Assembly (NCBI RefSeq): GCF_024298965.1
Contig: NZ_CP085193.1
Coordinates: 1,984,001 to 2,048,000, forward strand
Direction: 5' to 3'
Source of the DNA: Streptomyces rapamycinicus NRRL 5491
GTDB taxonomy: Bacteria > Actinomycetota > Actinomycetes > Streptomycetales > Streptomycetaceae
DNA: 64,000 nucleotides
Shown here: positions 51,145-59,119 of the stretch, piece after piece
How the letters are laid out: every line of letters begins with the position of its first letter
How positions within the stretch are numbered: the stretch's first letter is position 1
Notes under the pieces: model-generated
The model's database searches: none
Told to the model about the DNA's origin: nothing
The model's input: the letters and a program-made list of their open reading frames with translations, nothing else
Position numbers and translations under genes: made by a program

Positions 51145-51560
51145 GCGGTGACTCTCCTTCGCATCGAGAACGGTGAGGACAACACGTTCGTACGACGGAC
51201 TGCGGGACGTCTCGTACCGTACGCGCAGCGATCATCCGGGTACACCTTTGAGCGGCGGGCCACCGTGGCGGCCGCGAGCGCCACCATCCCGGCGCCCTGA
51301 AGCCCCACGAACTCGGTCACCGCCACGTCGCGGCACACCCCACACCTGGCCCTGGGCACCGGTCCATGAGGTGTCGCGTCTCGCGGGCGTCACCTGTTTG
51401 ACGGGTTACGCAGCTCCGGATTAGCCTGCGATCGTCACCAGCCGCCCGCCGAGGGCCGTGTCGCCCGGACAGCCCGTTCACCCACGTCCTCGCTCAGCCG
51501 TGGCCCATCGCCATGGCCTGATCGCGTCATGGCCCTGACCAGCACTCCCACGAGGAACCC
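51145..51560. other. Promoter region of the DinB/C-S lyase operon
   Basis: About 415 bp with no supported gene. It contains the operator at 51389-51409 and a probable promoter (TTGACG 51398-51403, 18 bp, TAGCCT 51422-51427) pointing to the DinB gene at 51561. A minus-strand frame with GC-rich codons at 51235-51300 is possibly a gene relic. Confidence 0.5.
51389..51409 (+). promoter_or_regulatory. GTCACC-N9-GGTGAC element, site 1
   Basis: GTCACC-N9-GGTTAC with the spacer TGTTTGACG, whose TTGACG serves as the -35 box of the promoter for the DinB operon. One mismatch in the right arm. It is the leftmost of nine such elements between here and 58024. Confidence 0.65.
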
Positions 51561-52025
51561 ATGGAACTGAACGAGTACCTGTACTTCCTGCGCCGCGCGT
51601 TCGACGGCATGATCAGCGCACTGGAGGAACTGGGCGACGAGCTCGCCAATACCGCGCTTCCGCCGACCGGGGCGAACAGCCCGTTCGCGATCGCCTATCA
51701 CTGCACGGGCGTGGCCGATTACTGGATCGGGCACGTCATCGCCGACAGGTCCGTGGACCGGGACCGGGCCTCGGAGTTCACCGCCGTCGGGACGGTCACC
51801 GACCTCAAGAGTGCTGTGGACCCGCTGTTCGGCCGTCTGCGCGACGACCTGTGCGGAGTCGACCCGCAGGCGGCGCCCCGCAACGTACCGCCCGTCTCCT
51901 TCGAAGGCCCCGACCGCCCGCTGACCTGCGCCGGTGTTCAGCTGCACGTACTGGAGGAACTCGCCCAGCACCACGGGCAGGTACAGATCACCCGGGACGT
52001 CCTCCTGAACGGCACGGCACGATGA
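51561..52025 (+). CDS. DinB family (DUF664) protein, possible mycothiol-type transferase
   Basis: 154 aa four-helix bundle of the DinB/YfiT superfamily. The metal triad is visible: His47 in AYHCTGVADYWIGH, His129 and His137 in LHVLEELAQHHGQ. Related actinobacterial proteins transfer mycothiol or other low-molecular thiols to electrophiles; that activity is known for the family, not shown here. The stop overlaps the ATG of the C-S lyase gene (ATGA, 52022-52025), so the two are coupled, which suggests that the lyase acts on the thiol adduct. Confidence 0.82.
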   Translation: MELNEYLYFLRRAFDGMISALEELGDELANTALPPTGANSPFAIAYHCTGVADYWIGHVIADRSVDRDRASEFTAVGTVTDLKSAVDPLFGRLRDDLCGVDPQAAPRNVPPVSFEGPDRPLTCAGVQLHVLEELAQHHGQVQITRDVLLNGTAR

Positions 52026-53245
52026 CTCATCCGGCCCCCGCCCCGGGAGCCCCCGCCCCCGACCATCGCCACGTCCCCGGCTTCGACGACCTCGACCGGG
52101 ACTGGCTGCGCAACCGCGCCGGGGTGAAGTGGCACCGCGTGGATCAAACGGTCCTGCCCGCCTGGGTGGCCGACATGGACTACCCGATCCCCCGGGCCGT
52201 CGCCGAGGCTCTCCACGAGGCCGTCACTTACGGAGATCTGGGATATCCCGACTGGCCCGACGGCAGCCCGCTGCGCCGGCTCTTCGCCGAGCGCATGACG
52301 TGCCGTTACGGCTGGGAGGCCGCGCCATCCCGTGTCCGCGAACAAACAGACCTCATACAGTGCCTGCAGCTCCTGCTCCACCTGGCCACCTCCCCGGGGG
52401 ATGCCGTCGCGGTCCAGACGCCGAACTACCCTCCGTTCCTGGCCACGCTGAGGACAATGCGGCGTCCCGCCGTTCCGGTGCCCATGATCCAGACCGACCA
52501 GGGCTGGCGCATGGACTTCGCCGCGCTGGCCGACGGCGTGGCCCGCCACGGCTGCAAGGTGCTCCTGCTGGTGAACCCGCACAACCCCACCGGCCGCGTC
52601 ATGACCCGGGACGAGCTCGAGGAGATCGCCGCCGTCGCCCGACGGCACGACTTGCTGGTCATCAGCGACGAGATCCACTCCGAGCTGAGCCACGCCCCCC
52701 ACCAGCACATCCCCTTCGCGTCCCTGTCGCCCGACGCCGCCGCACGGACGGTGACCATCACCTCCGCTACCAAGGCGTTCAACCTTGCCGGGCTGCGCTG
52801 CACCGTCACCCACTACGGCCCCGACCGGCTGCTGGCCACCCGCGACGCCCAGCCACCGGACCTGTACGGAACCGTCTCCACCCTCGGCGTCATCGGCACC
52901 CGAGCGGCCTGGCGGCACGGAGATCCCTGGCAGAAGGAACTTCTGACCGTCCTGGACCGCAACCGCCATCGTGTCCACGACGTACTACGCGACCGGGTGC
53001 CGGCGCTGCGCCACTGGCTTCCCGAAGCCACCTACCTCGCCTGGCTCGACGTCCGTGGGCTACGGCTCACGGAAGATCCGGTCCAGTACGTGCTCCGCCA
53101 GGGCAAGGTCCTCCTCGACGGCGGGGAACCCTTCGGTCCGGAGTCCGGCGGGTATCTGCGGCTCAACTTCGCCACCTCGGCGCGGGTGCTGGACGAGGTT
53201 CTCGACGGGGTCAGCACCGCGCTGGCCCCCCTCCAGGAGCGCTGA
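52022..53245 (+). CDS. PatB/MalY-type PLP C-S lyase
   Basis: 407 aa. Fold type I aminotransferase of the MalY/PatB branch. The N-terminal WHRVDQTVLPAWVADMDYPI is the family hallmark (ADMDF/Y), followed by GDLGYPDWPDG, NPHNPTGRVMT, ISDEIHSELSH and the PLP-lysine loop TITSATKAFNLAGLR. These enzymes cleave cystathionine or cysteine S-conjugates to thiol, pyruvate and ammonia via 2-aminoacrylate. It is coupled to the DinB gene by a 4-bp overlap, and RidA, which removes 2-aminoacrylate, follows 113 bp later. Confidence 0.92.
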   Translation: MTHPAPAPGAPAPDHRHVPGFDDLDRDWLRNRAGVKWHRVDQTVLPAWVADMDYPIPRAVAEALHEAVTYGDLGYPDWPDGSPLRRLFAERMTCRYGWEAAPSRVREQTDLIQCLQLLLHLATSPGDAVAVQTPNYPPFLATLRTMRRPAVPVPMIQTDQGWRMDFAALADGVARHGCKVLLLVNPHNPTGRVMTRDELEEIAAVARRHDLLVISDEIHSELSHAPHQHIPFASLSPDAAARTVTITSATKAFNLAGLRCTVTHYGPDRLLATRDAQPPDLYGTVSTLGVIGTRAAWRHGDPWQKELLTVLDRNRHRVHDVLRDRVPALRHWLPEATYLAWLDVRGLRLTEDPVQYVLRQGKVLLDGGEPFGPESGGYLRLNFATSARVLDEVLDGVSTALAPLQER

Positions 53246-53357
53246 GGACGCGACGCGCAAGCACCCACGTGTATCAGCCCCGTGCCGTCGGCGCCCCTCA
53301 GCGGGCCGGCGCACCCCACGACATGTCTCCCGACCCGGACGAAAGAAGGAAATCCCT

Positions 53358-53771
53358 GTGAGCGATCAACAAACGAAGACGGCCATCGTCCCCACCACCC
53401 ACTCGGGCGCGGCAGGCCCGTACTCACCCGGCAGCCGAAAGGGCGACATCCTGCAGACCGCGGGTCAGCTGGGGCTGCCGCCCGGCGCCCCCCATCTCCG
53501 CTCGGCCGATCAGTACCCGAACCTGGCCACCCAGGTGCTTCAGGCGCTCGACAACGTCACCGCGGTGCTCGCCGAGGCCGGGTCCGGCTGGGCAGACGTG
53601 ATCATGGTCCGGGCGCATCTCACCGACACCGCCCACTTCCGGGAGTTCAACACCCTGTACTCCGAGTACCTCGCCACCGAGCAGGGCCCCCTCCCGTCCC
53701 GCACGACTGTGTACGTGGGCCTGCCGGCCGGATGTCTCGTGGAGATCGACGCCCTGGCCGTCCTGGGGTGA
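53358..53771 (+). CDS. RidA family enamine/imine deaminase
   Basis: 137 aa, GTG start behind AAGGAA. The YjgF/RidA fold is clear: GAAGPYSPGSRKGDILQTAG, NVTAVLAEAGSGWADVIMVR and PSRTTVYVGLPAGCLVEI with the substrate-binding Arg. RidA hydrolyses 2-aminoacrylate and similar imines, the reactive product of PLP beta-lyases, so it fits directly behind the C-S lyase. A stem-loop ends the transcript before the MFS gene. Confidence 0.93.
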   Translation: MSDQQTKTAIVPTTHSGAAGPYSPGSRKGDILQTAGQLGLPPGAPHLRSADQYPNLATQVLQALDNVTAVLAEAGSGWADVIMVRAHLTDTAHFREFNTLYSEYLATEQGPLPSRTTVYVGLPAGCLVEIDALAVLG

Positions 53772-53781
53772 CACCTCCTGT

Positions 53782-53816
53782 GCCACGGGCCGTGCCGCCG
53801 CAGGCCGGCCCGTGGC
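53782..53816 (+). terminator. Terminator after RidA
   Basis: Stem GCCACGGGCC / GGCCCGTGGC, 10 bp perfect, 15-base loop. It separates RidA from the MFS gene, which has its own promoter. Confidence 0.65.
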
Positions 53817-53894
53817 GATGAGGCCGCCGCTGTGACGCCGCCAGCTCCGCGGCCCCCGTCCATAACAGCAGCGCAACCCTGAAGCAGTAATTCC

Positions 53895-53962
53895 GTCACC
53901 GTATTGACAGGTGTCGACATCGACGGCATGTTACTCCCATCGTCACCCCATAGAGCGGTGAC
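53895..53962 (+). promoter_or_regulatory. Two GTCACC-N9-GGTGAC elements (sites 2 and 3) at the MFS promoter
   Basis: Site 2 (53895-53915): GTCACC-GTATTGACA-GGTGTC; its TTGACA (53904-53909) is a -35 box. Site 3 (53942-53962): GTCACC-N9-GGTGAC, a perfect repeat, about 25 bp downstream, near the transcription start. Repressor occupancy of both would block the MFS gene at 54020. Confidence 0.65.
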
Positions 53963-54019
53963 ACTCATCGTGAATGCCTCTTCACGCGCCTCGATGCCCG
54001 TCGTCCCCAGGGGAACCCC

Positions 54020-55426
54020 ATGACCCACACCGCATCCACTCCCCCTCCCGGCGGCCGAGTGCCGCGTCCGGCGACGGAAACGTCCGGCGCCGGCCAGCTC
54101 GCGGCCAGACTCGAGCGACTGCCGTGGTCCGGCTATCAGCGAAAGCTGCTGCTGGTCGTGGCCACGGCCTGGCTATTCGATTCCATCGACCTCGCGTCGC
54201 TCACCTTCATGCTGTCGCCGATCAGCACCGAATTCTCGCTCGACCACGCGCAGGCCGGCCTCGTGGGCAGCACGAGCTTCCTGGGCATGCTCGTCGGAGC
54301 GGTGGTGGCCGGCGCACTGGCGGACCGAGTGGGCCGCCGACGAGTCTTCCAGTGGAGCATCGTCGTCTGGGGCGTCGCCGGCATCGCCCTGGCCCTGTCG
54401 TGGGACTTCTCCAGCCTGTTGGCATTCCGGTTCCTGCTGGGCCTGGGCATGGGGGCCGAATTCCCCGTCGCCGCGGCACTGATGGCCGAGTTCCTGCCCG
54501 CCGAACGGCGCGGACGCGGTGCGGCGATCCTGGAAGGGGCATGGCCGGTCGGCTTCGTCCTGGCGGGCACACTGGCGTACTTCATCGTTGAGCCACTCGG
54601 CTGGCGCGCGATGTTCGTCATCGAGGCGTGTCTGGCCCTCTGGGCCCTGGTGATCCGGCGGTTCATCCCCGAGTCGCCCCGCTGGCTGGCCACTCACGGC
54701 CGGTACGCCGAAGCGGAGCAGATCATCACGGAGATCGAGAAAACCGTCGAAGCCACCACCGGCAAGCCCCTGCCGGAACCGGCGGGCCCCGTCATCACCA
54801 CCGCGTCCGGCCCGGAACGCGGCGGAATCCGCGATCTGCTCTCCCCCTCGTACCGACGGCGCACGCTGTCCCTGTGGGCCGTCTGGTTCTGTATTCTCCT
54901 CGGCTACTACGGACTGACGACCTGGCTCGGCGGCCTCCTCACCGAACGCGGCCTCGACGTCATTCACAGCATTCAATACGTCCTGCTCATGGCCCTGTGG
55001 GGCATCCCCGGCTTCCTGTCCGCGGCCTATCTGGTCGAACGCGTCGGACGGAAGTTCTGCCTGGCGGGATACACCGTGGCCTCGGCAGTGGCCGCTTATG
55101 CCTATGGCCAGGCGGGCGACCGGACCGAGCTGATACTGACCGGCTCGATCCTCCAGTTCTTCTTCTTCGGAATGTGGTCCGCGCTCTACGCCTACACCCC
55201 GGAACTGTTCCCCACCCGCAGCCGGGGCATCGGGATGGGAACCGCGACGGCCGCCGGCCGACTCGGCGCGGTACTCGGCCCGACTCTCGTTCCCATCATC
55301 CTGAACGTGGCCGGAGCCACCGCTGTCTTCACCGTCAGCGCGGCCCTCTTCCTCATCGCCGCGTCGGTGGTCGTGGCGCTTCTGCCCGAAACCAAGCACA
55401 CCGTCCTGGAAGACATCTCCGGATAG
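54020..55426 (+). CDS. MFS transporter (aromatic-acid/sugar symporter type)
   Basis: 468 aa, 12 helices. Motif A in GALADRVGRRRVF, helix 4 LLAFRFLLGLGMGAEFPVAA, PESPRW after helix 6, and a second loop VERVGRKFC. The same family as the gene at 26780-28324. It has its own promoter with two copies of the 21-bp element, in common with the C-S lyase operon upstream, and its likely substrate is therefore an organosulfur or thiol-adduct compound; that is inference. A hairpin terminates it. Confidence 0.88.
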   Translation: MTHTASTPPPGGRVPRPATETSGAGQLAARLERLPWSGYQRKLLLVVATAWLFDSIDLASLTFMLSPISTEFSLDHAQAGLVGSTSFLGMLVGAVVAGALADRVGRRRVFQWSIVVWGVAGIALALSWDFSSLLAFRFLLGLGMGAEFPVAAALMAEFLPAERRGRGAAILEGAWPVGFVLAGTLAYFIVEPLGWRAMFVIEACLALWALVIRRFIPESPRWLATHGRYAEAEQIITEIEKTVEATTGKPLPEPAGPVITTASGPERGGIRDLLSPSYRRRTLSLWAVWFCILLGYYGLTTWLGGLLTERGLDVIHSIQYVLLMALWGIPGFLSAAYLVERVGRKFCLAGYTVASAVAAYAYGQAGDRTELILTGSILQFFFFGMWSALYAYTPELFPTRSRGIGMGTATAAGRLGAVLGPTLVPIILNVAGATAVFTVSAALFLIAASVVVALLPETKHTVLEDISG

Positions 55427-55458
55427 GGACGCCGGATCCGAAGACCGACGTGACGCCG

Positions 55459-55496
55459 CCCCTGCGAGCACGGCACAGCCACCTTGCTCGCGGGGG
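55459..55496 (+). terminator. Terminator after the MFS gene
   Basis: Stem CCCC-T-GCGAGCA / TGCTCGC-G-GGGG around a 14-base loop, 33 bp after the MFS stop. Confidence 0.6.
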
Positions 55497-55545
55497 TCCG
55501 GCGCTCGTCTGTGCTGACAATCGACGACATCGGAGGGTGAGCACT

Positions 55546-56280
55546 GTGGGGCGTTGGTGGCGCTGGCGGAGAGTGGCTTTCAAGGGAAGGGTGACCCAGG
55601 CCGAGTTCGCCCAGTTCGCCTCGCGGGAGGGATGGTGGTACTCGGGCTCACAGGAGCACGAGTGGTTCGGCTCCGCTCACACGTGGGACACGGTGGAAGG
55701 TCTCGTCGTACGGTTCTACACCGGTGGTCCGGTGCCCGTGCCGTTCGCCGAGGTGAGCGCGGACGAGCCGGAGATGTGTCAGCGTGCGATGGCCGACGCG
55801 GAGGCCGCCGCCGTCCGGGCCTTCCCCTGCTTCTCGGTCGCGGATTGCCTCGACCTGGCGCGGGGCTCAAGCGGTGGGGCGACGGTCCGGGCGCTGAACG
55901 GCCTGGCCGCCGTGGTACCCGACCGCTACTCCCGCGCGGTGGGAGAAGTCGTGATTCCGGCGCTCTTCGCACCCGAAGCAATGGTCCGGTCGGCAGCACT
56001 GCGGGTCGTCAGGATGGCGGCGTGGCCCGAGTTCGTACGACCGCTCGCCGCCGCGGCACTGACCGAACCCGACGAGGAGGCCGCCTGCCTCGCGCGCGAC
56101 ATCGTGGCCGGCCTGTCCGGGGCGGACGTCCTGACCTTCCTCGTGCGGCCGTCGGCCGACAAGGAGCCGACGACCGACACCGGCCATCGATCGGACGACG
56201 ACGCGCAGCGGACCGCCGGCCAGGGACGGCGGTCGCGGAAGCCCGGCTCAGCCCAAGAGATCTTCGTCTGGACACCCTGA
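55546..56280 (+). CDS. Hypothetical protein with HEAT-like helical repeats
   Basis: 244 aa from GTG 55546, nine bases after GGAGG. The first 20 residues are basic and Trp-rich (GRWWRWRRVAFKGRV). The middle (LNGLAAVVPDRYSRAVGEVV; FVRPLAAAALTEPDEEAACL) looks like paired helices of a HEAT/armadillo type. The tail is charged and disordered. No known domain. It overlaps the convergent HATPase gene by 33 bp. Confidence 0.6.
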   Translation: MGRWWRWRRVAFKGRVTQAEFAQFASREGWWYSGSQEHEWFGSAHTWDTVEGLVVRFYTGGPVPVPFAEVSADEPEMCQRAMADAEAAAVRAFPCFSVADCLDLARGSSGGATVRALNGLAAVVPDRYSRAVGEVVIPALFAPEAMVRSAALRVVRMAAWPEFVRPLAAAALTEPDEEAACLARDIVAGLSGADVLTFLVRPSADKEPTTDTGHRSDDDAQRTAGQGRRSRKPGSAQEIFVWTP

Positions 56281-56754
56281 GTTCCAGCCCGATACGCGAA
56301 GGCCGACGCGGACCGTGTGGGAGTCGGCCGTCTCGCGGCACTCGATCCATTCGGTCAGGTGCTCGACGATGGACAGCCCCCGTCCGTGCTCGTCTCCGCA
56401 CTCGTCGGATCGGCCCGTCGCGGACGGTGGGCGGGCGGCTGGCGCGCCCCAGTCAATGACTTCGAGACTCAGCCGTCGGGCGTCCAGACGCAGGGAGACG
56501 CACATGCTGGCCCTTCCGTGCACGGCCGCATTACCGACGAGCTCGCTCACCACGAGGACCGCGGAGTGCAGGTCGTCGTCGTCCACGCCCCACAGGTCGA
56601 GCTGGACGCCGACGAACCGACGCGCCTCCGGAACCCGGCAGGGCTCGGCGGGCAGGGTCATCGCCGCCTGCTGGGGTTCCCCGCGGAGCTGACCCCGACC
56701 ATCGGACACGTGGGGTGACGACTGCGTCACGCCGGGGACTGAAAGAACAAACAT
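56248..56754 (-). CDS. HATPase (RsbW/anti-sigma-like) protein
   Basis: 168 aa, a single GHKL ATPase domain. The N box is VVSELVGNAAVHGRAS, the G1/G2 region is DEHGRGLSIVEHLTEW, and the ending HTVRVGLRV is usual. Standalone proteins like this act as anti-sigma kinases or bind partner proteins in stress pathways. The first 30 residues (up to PAEPCRVPEARRFV) are not conserved. Its upstream region, shared with the CGNR gene, carries four copies of the 21-bp element. It may therefore belong to the same regulon. Confidence 0.82.
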   Translation of the reverse strand: MFVLSVPGVTQSSPHVSDGRGQLRGEPQQAAMTLPAEPCRVPEARRFVGVQLDLWGVDDDDLHSAVLVVSELVGNAAVHGRASMCVSLRLDARRLSLEVIDWGAPAARPPSATGRSDECGDEHGRGLSIVEHLTEWIECRETADSHTVRVGLRVSGWNSGCPDEDLLG

Positions 56755-56829
56755 GGGAAATCCGATTCGGAACGGAGCCGAACTCCAGGGACTTTCGACA
56801 GCTCAGCCGGATCGATCGACAACCTCTAC

Positions 56830-57010
56830 GTCACCAGCTTGTGTAGTTACTTCTGGTTGCCACCCTTCCTCCCGATTTGTAACCTGTCAATAGGGTGACG
56901 AAGGCGAAGCGGGTTGAAGGGGAAGAAACCAGAGACTGAACCTGTTTGCGGGGTGACCTCGCCTGCGGCCCGCTATCGACACGGGAGGCGTCACCTGTCA
57001 ATATGGACGT
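56830..57010. promoter_or_regulatory. Four GTCACC-N9-GGTGAC-type elements between HATPase and CGNR genes
   Basis: Sites 4-7: 56830-56850 (GTCACC-N9-AGTTAC), 56879-56899 (GTAACC-N9-GGTGAC), 56937-56957 (TGAACC-N9-GGTGAC, weakest) and 56990-57010 (GTCACC-N9-GGACGT). Centres are 49-58 bp apart. The last abuts the GTG of the CGNR gene and covers its likely -10 box (CAATAT, 17 bp after TCGACA). Confidence 0.6.
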
Positions 57011-57583
57011 GTGGATGAGTTCGTCTTTGTGAGTGGTCGGCTGTGCCTCGATCTGGCGGGCACCAAGCTGTGGCGTCGGAGTCTTCACACGGAGCTGCTG
57101 AACTCCCCGGATGACATGCGGCGCTGGGTCCGCCAGGCGGGGCTCCTGGATGATCCGGGCCCAGTGGACGCCCGCGCGTTCGAGCGGCTGCGCCGTCTGC
57201 GTGAGGCGGTCTACACGCTCGCCACTTCCTGGCCTCCGGGCGACCACCCGGATGCCGATGTCGGTGAAGTCCTCGCGGAAGTGAACGAAGCGGCCCGGCT
57301 GCCGCTGCCGAAGCATCAGCTCGAGGTGTCGGGTCGGCTGACCCGGACGGGCGGTGTGGACGAGGTACTCGGTGCGGTGGCCCGCGACGCGGTGGACCTG
57401 CTGAGCTCGGCCCATTTCGCGCGGATGAGAGAGTGCGCCAACCCGGACTGCACGCGTCTCTTCATCGATCTGTCCCACTCCGGCGCCCGACGGTGGTGCG
57501 GGATGGCCGAGTGCGGGAACAGGCACAAGGCCGCCAGCTACCGGAAGCGGAAGAAGCAAACTGCGGTCGAAGCCGCCGCCTGA
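57011..57583 (+). CDS. CGNR zinc-finger transcriptional regulator
   Basis: 190 aa. The N-terminal ABATE-type region (residues 1-125) precedes the zinc finger: ECANPDCTRLFIDLS, then RWCGMAECGNRHKAASY, giving Cys-x4-Cys ... Cys-x4-Cys with the CGNR signature and a basic tail (RKRKKQ). CGNR proteins are regarded as stress-responsive DNA-binding regulators. The GTG at 57011 has no ribosome site, but a promoter with +1 at the start codon is plausible (leaderless). Site 7 of the 21-bp element touches this start, so autoregulation and control of the nearby genes are likely. Confidence 0.85.
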   Translation: MDEFVFVSGRLCLDLAGTKLWRRSLHTELLNSPDDMRRWVRQAGLLDDPGPVDARAFERLRRLREAVYTLATSWPPGDHPDADVGEVLAEVNEAARLPLPKHQLEVSGRLTRTGGVDEVLGAVARDAVDLLSSAHFARMRECANPDCTRLFIDLSHSGARRWCGMAECGNRHKAASYRKRKKQTAVEAAA

Positions 57584-57586
57584 GGA

Positions 57587-57610
57587 CAGGTCCTCACCGG
57601 CGAGGACCTG
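57587..57610 (+). terminator. Terminator after the CGNR gene
   Basis: Stem CAGGTCCTC / GAGGACCTG, 9 bp perfect with a six-base loop, beginning 4 bp after the CGNR stop. Confidence 0.6.
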
Positions 57611-57835
57611 GCGGCGTTCATGACGGCCTTTGCGATCACCTGGGGAGCGCGTACCGCGTGGCCCCCACCCGGAGGGTGCTGCCGTCCAGTCCGTCGACCG
57701 CAGCGCACCGGTGGGGGACAGCCAGGCGGCACACAGCGCCGGACAGACGGCGCGCACCGCGCGGATCGCGCGTTCACGCCATCCGCGGGCGCTCTCGCGG
57801 CATTGGCACGTTCATGTAATATTTGCGCGCCTACG

Positions 57836-57856
57836 CTTACCACACAATAGGGTGAC
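57836..57856 (-). promoter_or_regulatory. GTCACC-N9-GGTGAC element, site 8
   Basis: On the + strand CTTACC-N9-GGTGAC; the minus reading gives GTCACC-CTATTGTGT-GGTAAG. Two mismatches in one arm. Confidence 0.45.
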
Positions 57857-58003
57857 GATCCGCGACCATCCATCTGCCATATCGGCCTGCCACAACAGCC
57901 TGTCGAGCGTCAGTAACCCGCGTTTAGACCGCCTGGAATGTGTGATTCACCAGCCCATCTCGCCCGATCAGAGCGGGAGAGCAGTCCGCAGCGCACGGCA
58001 TTC

Positions 58004-58024
58004 GTCACCTCATTGACTAGTGAC
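58004..58024 (+). promoter_or_regulatory. GTCACC-N9-GGTGAC element, site 9
   Basis: GTCACC-TCATTGACT-AGTGAC: one mismatch. TTGACT lies inside the spacer as a possible -35 box. It stands about 250 bp before the LAL relic. Confidence 0.55.
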
Positions 58025-58270
58025 ACATTCGTACGGCAGTCTTGGGCAGACGACGAAGACAGGCCACACAGGCCGATTCAAGGCGACAAGCCGTGTGGTG
58101 ACCGGCAGGGAAGGTCATCTGGCCTCTCCGCCCCCGCACTCCCCGCCGCAGCCGCCACCCCCGTCGGCTGCGGCGGGGCCAGTCGTCAGCGGATCCGCAG
58201 GGTTGACCGACCGGGGCCACCGGGACCGGACCCCGACAACGTTGCGTGGTGCGAGAGAAGAGGTAGAACG

Positions 58271-59119
58271 GTGATCAGACGCCGCGCATCCTTCGCAGAC
58301 ACAGAACTCACCGGGCGACGACGTGAGTTGCACACCCTCCGCGTGCTCCTCGACGGGATGAGTGACAAACGAGGAGGGGCGCTGGTCGTGCGTGGGGAGT
58401 TGGGCATCGGCAAGACTGCCCTCCTTCAGGGAGTGCGGCCCTCACCGGACACGCTCGTCCTCGCCATATCCGGCGTGGAGCCCGAGAAGGAACTGGACTT
58501 CGCCGCCCTCCACCGGCTCTGCGCCCCCGTATTGCCCGGTGTCAACCGGCTGCCCGCACCTCAGCGTCATGCCCTGGAGGCGACGTTCGGCACCGGAACG
58601 GAGGGGCACCCGGATCGCCTCCTGGTGGGACTCGCTGCCCTCGGTCTATTGTCGGAAGCGGCCGCGGAACGCCCCCTGTTGTGCGTCATCGACGACGCAC
58701 AGTGGTTGGATCAGGCAACAGCGCACACTCTCGCCTTTGTCGCGCGCAGAGTTCACAACGAGCCAATCGTCCTCGTGTTCGCGGTGCGCGAGCCGAACGA
58801 CCGCTCCGAGCTCACCGGCCTCCCGGAACTCCGTCTGGAGGGACTGGCGGAAGAGGACGCGCGCAAGCTCCTGTCAGTGCGGTTCCCTTCGCCCTTCGAC
58901 GGCCCGGTCCGCGACTGCGTCGTCTCCGAAGCTCAGGGCAATCCCCTGGCTTTGCCGGAACTGTCACGCACCGCTGATGTCGCCGGCGGATTCACCTCTC
59001 CTGGAACGGGTGCGCGCCCGTCTCCCCTGGAAGCCGACCTGCGAAAGCAGCTCGCCGGACTTCCCCGGAACACGCGTATTCGCGATCGCTCATCGGTTGC
59101 GGACGGCTTACACCGCTGA
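58271..59119 (+). pseudogene. Truncated LAL (LuxR-family ATPase) regulator
   Basis: Starts GTG 58271 behind AGAGGT. About 270 residues of the AAA-type ATPase core are intact: FADTELTGRRRELHTLRVLL, Walker [14 protein letters not shown], Walker [14 protein letters not shown] and [16 protein letters not shown]. Homology ends at [12 protein letters not shown] (59075), where the frame enters a different gene, and it stops at 59119. The long TPR region and LuxR HTH (about 600 residues) are missing, so it cannot bind DNA as a LAL regulator. Confidence 0.75.

Follow-up and report, generated by a model that had tools for sequence, protein, structure and literature searches.

A 21-bp inverted repeat as the predicted operator of CGNR zinc-finger regulators in Streptomyces rapamycinicus and its relatives

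Regulators of the TetR, LacI and GntR type are ligand-responsive one-component autorepressors, and detoxification by way of mycothiol or mercapturates uses a C-S lyase and RidA. Both offer a comparison for a block of about 6.8 kb in Streptomyces rapamycinicus NRRL 5491, in which a 21-bp element, GTCACC-N9-GGTGAC, recurs around genes for a CGNR zinc-finger protein, a DinB-family protein and a C-S lyase; the block lies in a 64,000-nt stretch of contig NZ_CP085193.1, hereafter the window. Like the TetR, LacI and GntR autorepressors, the CGNR protein joins a ligand-binding-like domain to a DNA-binding domain, with a predicted dyad operator over its own and divergent promoters and a local regulon; unlike them, it carries a C-terminal treble-clef zinc finger instead of a helix-turn-helix, and its operator is defined by comparison only. 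The block resembles mycothiol and mercapturate detoxification in having a mycothiol-S-transferase (MST)-like DinB protein, a pyridoxal phosphate (PLP) C-S lyase and RidA side by side, and differs in that the PLP enzyme falls under the PatB cut-off, as does the best match of the major facilitator superfamily (MFS) transporter under its own.

The founding ABATE/CGNR structure, 3h0n (Jann_2411), is a dimer with a putative DNA-binding site, and the accessible part of its description predicts the family to be dimeric and DNA-binding and gives no DNA site (PMC2954205). Jann_2411 has the same two domains as the window protein, and a 14-member CGNR profile headed by the window protein matches it at 4.3e-13; its helix reads AAAF, for which the rule set out below predicts GTAACC half-sites. 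A PDB search returned 3h0n as the only relative and found no DNA complex. PMC3485107 and PMC4260502 name a CGNR zinc finger, and Table 1 of PMC9976334 lists a Bordetella pertussis CGNR gene, bp3097, with raised sulfur-metabolism genes, including an ABC transporter, under putative cysteine starvation. The initial annotation, made from the DNA letters, knew of no described operator for this family, and our literature search found none either, subscription papers and preprints lying outside it.

That annotation had proposed a CGNR regulon from nine copies of the element between 51389 and 58004, and all nine sequences are present at these positions (Table 1). Its count of one to three arm changes for the copies other than the perfect one is right for seven of them, the copy at 56990 having four. 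A tenth site that it missed, at 51355, has as its counterpart in Streptomyces iranensis (L179), the nearest named relative found (CGNR protein 94% identical), a perfect dyad, GACACC-GGTCCATGG-GGTGTC. Motif matches with at most two arm changes number 16 in the window, eight of them inside the block (binomial P 9.5e-5); the corresponding figures are five of six at no more than one change (P 7e-5) and 18 of 97 at no more than three (P 0.013). Spacers of 5–8 or 10–14 gave only 0–2 matches in the block and no such cluster, and the window total of 97 compares with 61.2 ± 8.6 in 100 shuffles (largest 82). The 21-bp element is confirmed as a real, above-chance feature.

A scan of the whole 12.47-Mb genome with the aligned sites had also been proposed, and by this measure S. 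rapamycinicus has the element at two CGNR/DinB/C-S lyase loci and, above chance, nowhere else. The model, 27 columns of sequence only, was built from 13 sites, nine of the window and four of the second locus (L036), and gave 17 matches at E ≤ 10. Fourteen of them, the top ten included, fall at the two CGNR loci, where some represent one site read from both strands; the rest of the genome has three, at E 1.3, 1.5 and 9.2, which is chance level. Because the model was trained on these very sites, only the lack of sites elsewhere counts as new information, and since sites are limited to the two loci, the element is not dispersed. One match set aside, at 5579767, lies within reading frames and is at chance level in the model scan. 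The second locus (about 0.77 Mb) carries paralogues of the window's DinB and C-S lyase genes (68% and 73%) and of its CGNR gene (78–79%), the last with element sites of its own. In all, this genome has 12 zf-CGNR matches.

Among 150 genomes of the genus, 85 hold a match to the window CGNR protein at E ≤ 1e-20. The 21-bp consensus is found in the same 150 genomes 94 times with at most one mismatch, 38 times exactly, and its reversed control not once. An interval of 4–16 bp upstream of a CGNR gene takes in 35 of the 38 exact matches and 40 of all 94, in uniform orientation, and 40 of the 57 CGNR genes compared have an adjacent match. Because the consensus was partly derived from the same loci, what carries information is that matches elsewhere are nearly absent. 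The string GTCACCGGTCTGGATGGTGA(C/T) accounts for 20 of the 54 non-adjacent matches, once per genome in 20 genomes (e.g. G125:C2:290755), and was rejected as probably a conserved coding string. The element touches the start codon, sometimes with arm changes, at 23 of 26 CGNR homologues of 40–46% identity (by eye), and in a further set from named genomes of Rhodococcus, Mycolicibacterium, Actinoplanes, Amycolatopsis, Labedella and others, 20 of 26 loci have a perfect dyad beginning 21–30 bp upstream of the first aligned codon, with perfect copies at the CGNR start in the first four of these genera. Comparison with relatives, as the initial annotation had advised, places the element both at the CGNR gene's own start, where the dyad operator of an autorepressor is expected, and at the DinB/C-S lyase promoters. 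The window's start-proximal copy is eroded in one arm, and site 56879 lies further upstream.

The position of the element relative to promoters points to a way in which it might act. We collected 67 GTC-type start-proximal sites (at most two arm changes and CA in the spacer): GTG or ATG follows the operator directly in 65, T stands at −14 in 65, a TTG box starting at −15 or −14 is matched 59 times, CAnnAT lies inside the operator 17–18 bp from that box, and 33 have a second copy 37–63 bp further upstream. At the CGNR start, TTGAC falls on the antisense strand and the sense strand offers CAnnAT as a possible −10 box; because the operator would cover this box and a leaderless start, autorepression fits. 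The suggestion that most spacers carry TTGAC as a possible −35 box was borne out in part: TTGAC is present in five of nine spacers (three on the plus strand, two on the minus), and it fits as a −35 box at the DinB promoter, as TTGAC[GT]-N18-TAG[CT]CT, in four of 13 DinB loci (the window, S. iranensis, Streptomyces endocoffeicus and Wenjunlia), with no TAnnnT at 16–19 bp for the other sites shown.

Linkage ties the element to the neighbouring enzyme genes as well. DinB and C-S lyase are both present at 20 of 22 loci with a window-type CGNR gene (at least 49% identity), and the two without the full pair end at contig edges. Six named records hold a single DinB–C-S lyase–CGNR operon with CGNR last and one operator before DinB, and in Rhodococcus wratislaviensis and Mycolicibacterium the CGNR gene is divergent from MFS, DinB and C-S lyase genes with operators between them, RidA following those genes in R. 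wratislaviensis. We detected 12 C-S lyase homologues in ten of the 150 genomes; the five with an adjacent DinB gene have operators, and the seven without one have none within 1.5 kb.

The neighbouring CGNR zinc-finger protein very probably binds the 21-bp element, a prediction drawn from comparing sequences, and the proposed CGNR regulon is supported in the same sense by its confinement to CGNR loci and its retention at CGNR and DinB/C-S lyase promoters in relatives. As a whole, we hold with high confidence that the element serves as operator for the product of the CGNR gene at 57011–57583, a probable dimeric autorepressor whose ABATE domain would mediate release by a ligand and which would control a thiol-conjugate module. 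Under this model, a CGNR dimer would place one zinc-finger helix into each GTCACC half-site; at the CGNR gene, the occupied operator would cover the −10-like box and the apparently leaderless start codon and so switch off the gene's own transcription, and at the window DinB operon it would cover the −35 box. A small molecule bound by the ABATE domain may then release the DNA. The DinB/MST-like enzyme, PatB-like C-S lyase, RidA and MFS transporter together suggest the handling of thiol conjugates, in which the C-S lyase would make 2-aminoacrylate and RidA, a family whose members remove this compound, would clear it; this assignment of chemistry is the weakest part of the reading.

Related dyads extend across CGNR subfamilies. 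In other subfamilies we found GTAACC/GGTTAC, GACACC/GGTGTC, GGAACC/GGTTCC and CTAACC/GGTTAA at spacer 9, which share the form NNNACC-N9-GGTNNN. Among 90 CGNR upstream regions, which include 60 further fetched CGNR genes, a sequence-free scan at spacing 9 detected perfect inverted repeats of 6 bp in 45, whereas the genes themselves gave nine of 90 and shuffles 3.4; the rise also seen at spacings 7 and 11 (24 and 21 of 90, versus five and 14 within the genes) is what longer dyads should give. The core ACC-N9-GGT is present in 77 of the 90, versus 3, 1 and 1 of 90 control stretches and a mean of 3.2 (maximum 8) in 100 shuffles. Because this core rule was set after those 90 sequences had been viewed, it was tested on 28 further genes of the same search, one of which (L286) had been seen beforehand: 19 have the core, versus a mean of 1.1 and a maximum of 5 in 200 shuffles. 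It also occurs in 18 of 24 genes from other genomes of the class (shuffle mean 0.7), a set fetched after the rule was set and already used for the helix and base comparison.

A universal N9 operator for all CGNR proteins was rejected. Of 30 loci in a phylum-wide PF11706 search, 28 have the zinc-finger position, and three of these, each with a VRAH helix, have the N9 core. Spacing 17 occurs in seven of 29 upstream regions taken from the 30 loci, versus 0.7 in shuffles, one of the seven (L162) being doubtful. Half-sites 17 bp apart stand at the distant actinobacterial CGNR genes L160, L165, L168, L152, L175 and L170, and L168 pairs helix TRTY with AACACC arms. Outside the Actinomycetota, we sampled seven CGNR loci picked from 60 listed plasmid records: Sphingomonas and Pararhizobium have N9 dyads touching the CGNR start, Pantoea and Deinococcus have GTAAC(C/T)..(A/G)GTTAC half-sites 19 bp apart, or about one helical turn beyond 9, and Ensifer has a partial N9 pair (the last three by eye, without a chance estimate); no dyad was found in the CGNR upstream DNA of Sphingobium and Agrobacterium. 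Seven VARH and AVAR proteins of the 28-gene test likewise showed no convincing N9 core, six having none and the seventh (L310) a match that is the single miss of the base-3 rule given next.

Operator bases vary in step with residues of the helix that follows CGN[RK]xK, which reads AASY in the window protein. Residue x4 agrees with operator base 3 in 114 of 115 genes, Tyr going with C and other residues with A (from 127 operator genes, eight with disagreeing arms, three with T and one with G at base 3 were omitted, the three with T all being Tyr genes that run counter to the rule), and residue x1 agrees with base 2 in all 81 genes with Tyr at x4, Ala going with T and Val or Ile with A. Natural switches accompany this pattern: six operon-type relatives with Val at x1 have the left arm GACACC (five) or AACACC (one), a distant clade with helix IAGY has similar arms, and Streptomyces hyaluromycini, with Phe for Tyr, has ATAACC..GGTTAC before DinB. 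Among the 28 test genes, 18 could be resolved at base 3 and 17 of them obey the base-3 rule; since all 18 lack Tyr, this bears on the non-Tyr half alone. The class set, from which the rule is not independent, agrees with it in 15 of 18. Genome comparison thus suggests which part of the protein may read which bases, and we think it somewhat favoured that CGNR autoregulators across phyla share a half-site N-N-N-A-C-Y whose outer three bases would be read by the four helix residues K-x1-x2-x3-x4, with x4 Tyr specifying C and Phe, His, Leu or Trp specifying A at base 3, x1 Ala specifying T, Val or Ile (with Tyr) A and Lys G at base 2, and a spacing set by clade at 9, 17 or 19 bp.

Several observations weigh against these readings. 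The strict core is missing from 13 of 90, nine of 28 and six of 24 genes; the 13 include the CGNR gene of the window, owing to the lost right arm of the copy nearest its start. The agreement of helix and bases is mostly shared ancestry: the tree needs only three changes at x4 and two at x1, so a phylogeny-corrected test has no power to reach significance. S. hyaluromycini keeps a GTC left arm at its CGNR-start copy despite its Phe, L034 and L170 have Tyr with GTA, and T stands at base 3 (GTT) in three Tyr rows, two of which read MAAY. For the proposed chemistry, the PLP enzyme reaches 315.4 bits versus a cut-off of 340 for TIGR04350 (PatB) and is therefore termed PatB-like only, and RidA is reduced to a 25-codon match in S. 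iranensis and unmatched in S. endocoffeicus, so it is not essential to the module.

The element could instead belong to a different regulator, one acting on CGNR genes and the genes beside them, with CGNR only a target; any regulator of CGNR promoters would likewise place it there, and we infer CGNR binding itself. This is improbable, given that the element stands at CGNR starts in many genera, that the dyad varies with CGNR subfamily and helix, that CGNR is the sole DNA-binding gene of three in the six DinB–C-S lyase–CGNR operons, and that no other linked regulator gene was seen across the loci among the neighbours annotated. Ten copies within 6.7 kb, several of them degenerate, and a deletion in S. 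endocoffeicus that seems by eye to end near an operator would suit a dispersed or mobile repeat spread in the block without regulatory role, but both arms change in step in relatives (GACACC/GGTGTC, GTAACC/GGTTAC), and the fixed distance to the start codon and the lack of sites above chance in the rest of the genome also speak against it. The initial annotation had named conservation only by repeat expansion, together with a lack of CGNR binding, among the findings that would overturn its proposal; because the arms covary and the element keeps its place at the CGNR start codon from genus to genus, such expansion is unlikely, and we give it very little credence. As hard to credit as repeat expansion is a string conserved mainly as a promoter and palindromic by chance: TTGACA and a −10-like CAnnAT do overlap the spacer, but the symmetry is carried by the arms and not by the promoter boxes, and the excess of perfect dyads at spacing 9 and the second copies further upstream also speak against it.

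Table 1. Predicted operator sites and genes of the block, in window coordinates
Feature	Position	Strand	Evidence
Tenth operator-like site, GGCACC-GGTCCATGA-GGTGTC	51355..51375	+	Window scan; perfect dyad in S. iranensis (L179)
Predicted operator upstream of DinB/C-S lyase	51389..51409	+	1 arm change; internal TTGACG possible −35; TAGCCT 18 bp further
DinB/mycothiol-S-transferase-like protein	51561..52025	+	Pfam PF04978 7.5e-12, PF12867 1.4e-8
PLP enzyme, PatB-like C-S lyase	52022..53245	+	Pfam PF00155; NCBIfam TIGR04350
RidA-family protein	53358..53771	+	Pfam PF01042 1.8e-22
Predicted operator upstream of MFS gene	53895..53915	+	1 arm change; kept in L179, L181
Predicted operator upstream of MFS gene, perfect dyad	53942..53962	+	0 arm changes
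MFS transporter	54020..55426	+	Pfam PF07690
HATPase_c_2 gene, divergent from CGNR (candidate target)	56248..56754	-	Pfam PF13581
Weak operator copy, HATPase/CGNR intergenic region	56830..56850	+	2 arm changes
Predicted operator, HATPase/CGNR intergenic region	56879..56899	+	1 arm change; genome-wide top score (E 0.007); kept in L179, L181
Weak copy upstream of CGNR	56937..56957	+	3 arm changes
Predicted operator touching CGNR start codon	56990..57010	+	4 arm changes, right arm eroded; position of the conserved copy in relatives
CGNR regulator (ABATE + zf-CGNR), helix CGNRHK-AASY-RKR	57011..57583	+	Pfam PF07336 4.3e-22, PF11706 1.7e-18
Weak copy downstream of CGNR	57836..57856	+	2 arm changes
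LAL relic: reading frame with AAA_16 domain only, start unsure	57938..59119	+	Pfam PF13191 5.2e-17
Operator copy before LAL relic (candidate target)	58004..58024	-	1 arm change; cf. S. sabulosicollis (L181)

The CGNR protein lies well over the gathering scores of both its domains (79.5 versus 24.4 bits for PF07336, 66.5 versus 24 for PF11706), and the four zinc cysteines of its finger (C142, C147, C163, C168) and R160 are invariant among 14 diverse members, the basic residues K173 and R178 nearly so. The DinB protein reaches 46.4 bits against PF04978, over the gathering score of 27, as a family match only, and the best NCBIfam match of the MFS protein, the aromatic acid/H+ symport family, is the one below its cut-off. 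The LAL relic has a parallel in Streptomyces sabulosicollis, where GTCACC-CCATTGACG-AGTGAC precedes a LAL match.

Other genes were seen next to CGNR genes or operators elsewhere. At the second locus, a gene that weakly matches the aldolase BhcC (L036:8158-9324; 104 versus 690 bits) and the DinB operon run divergently, and operators lie between them. At the S. endocoffeicus locus, RidA, MFS and HATPase have no match, and a stretch resembling the RidA start by eye (L180:8863-9000) is fused to an MFS-type operator, followed by the CGNR promoter. In a group of CGNR proteins 38–44% identical, operators also stand at the start of a Bax-inhibitor-1-like gene (L129:17013, L134:16293, L136:3182 and L130:15741, an identity supported by Pfam for L129, L134 and L136) and near the starts of alpha/beta hydrolase genes (L131, L133), and a double-ABC ATPase gene lies close to the CGNR gene in L138 and L130. 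On a Streptomyces linear plasmid (L284:463-4555), two ABC-F genes, one with a ribosomal-protection-like annotation, are followed directly by a CGNR gene of this 38–44% group.

CGNR proteins are numerous, almost unstudied bacterial regulators for which one structure and a conjectured function are on record. Defining the operator would make CGNR regulons searchable in any genome and singles out promoters at which binding can be tested. The correspondence between helix residues and DNA bases is itself testable, with the natural switches as built-in controls, and, if true, would amount to a predictive recognition code for a class of zinc fingers without a known site.

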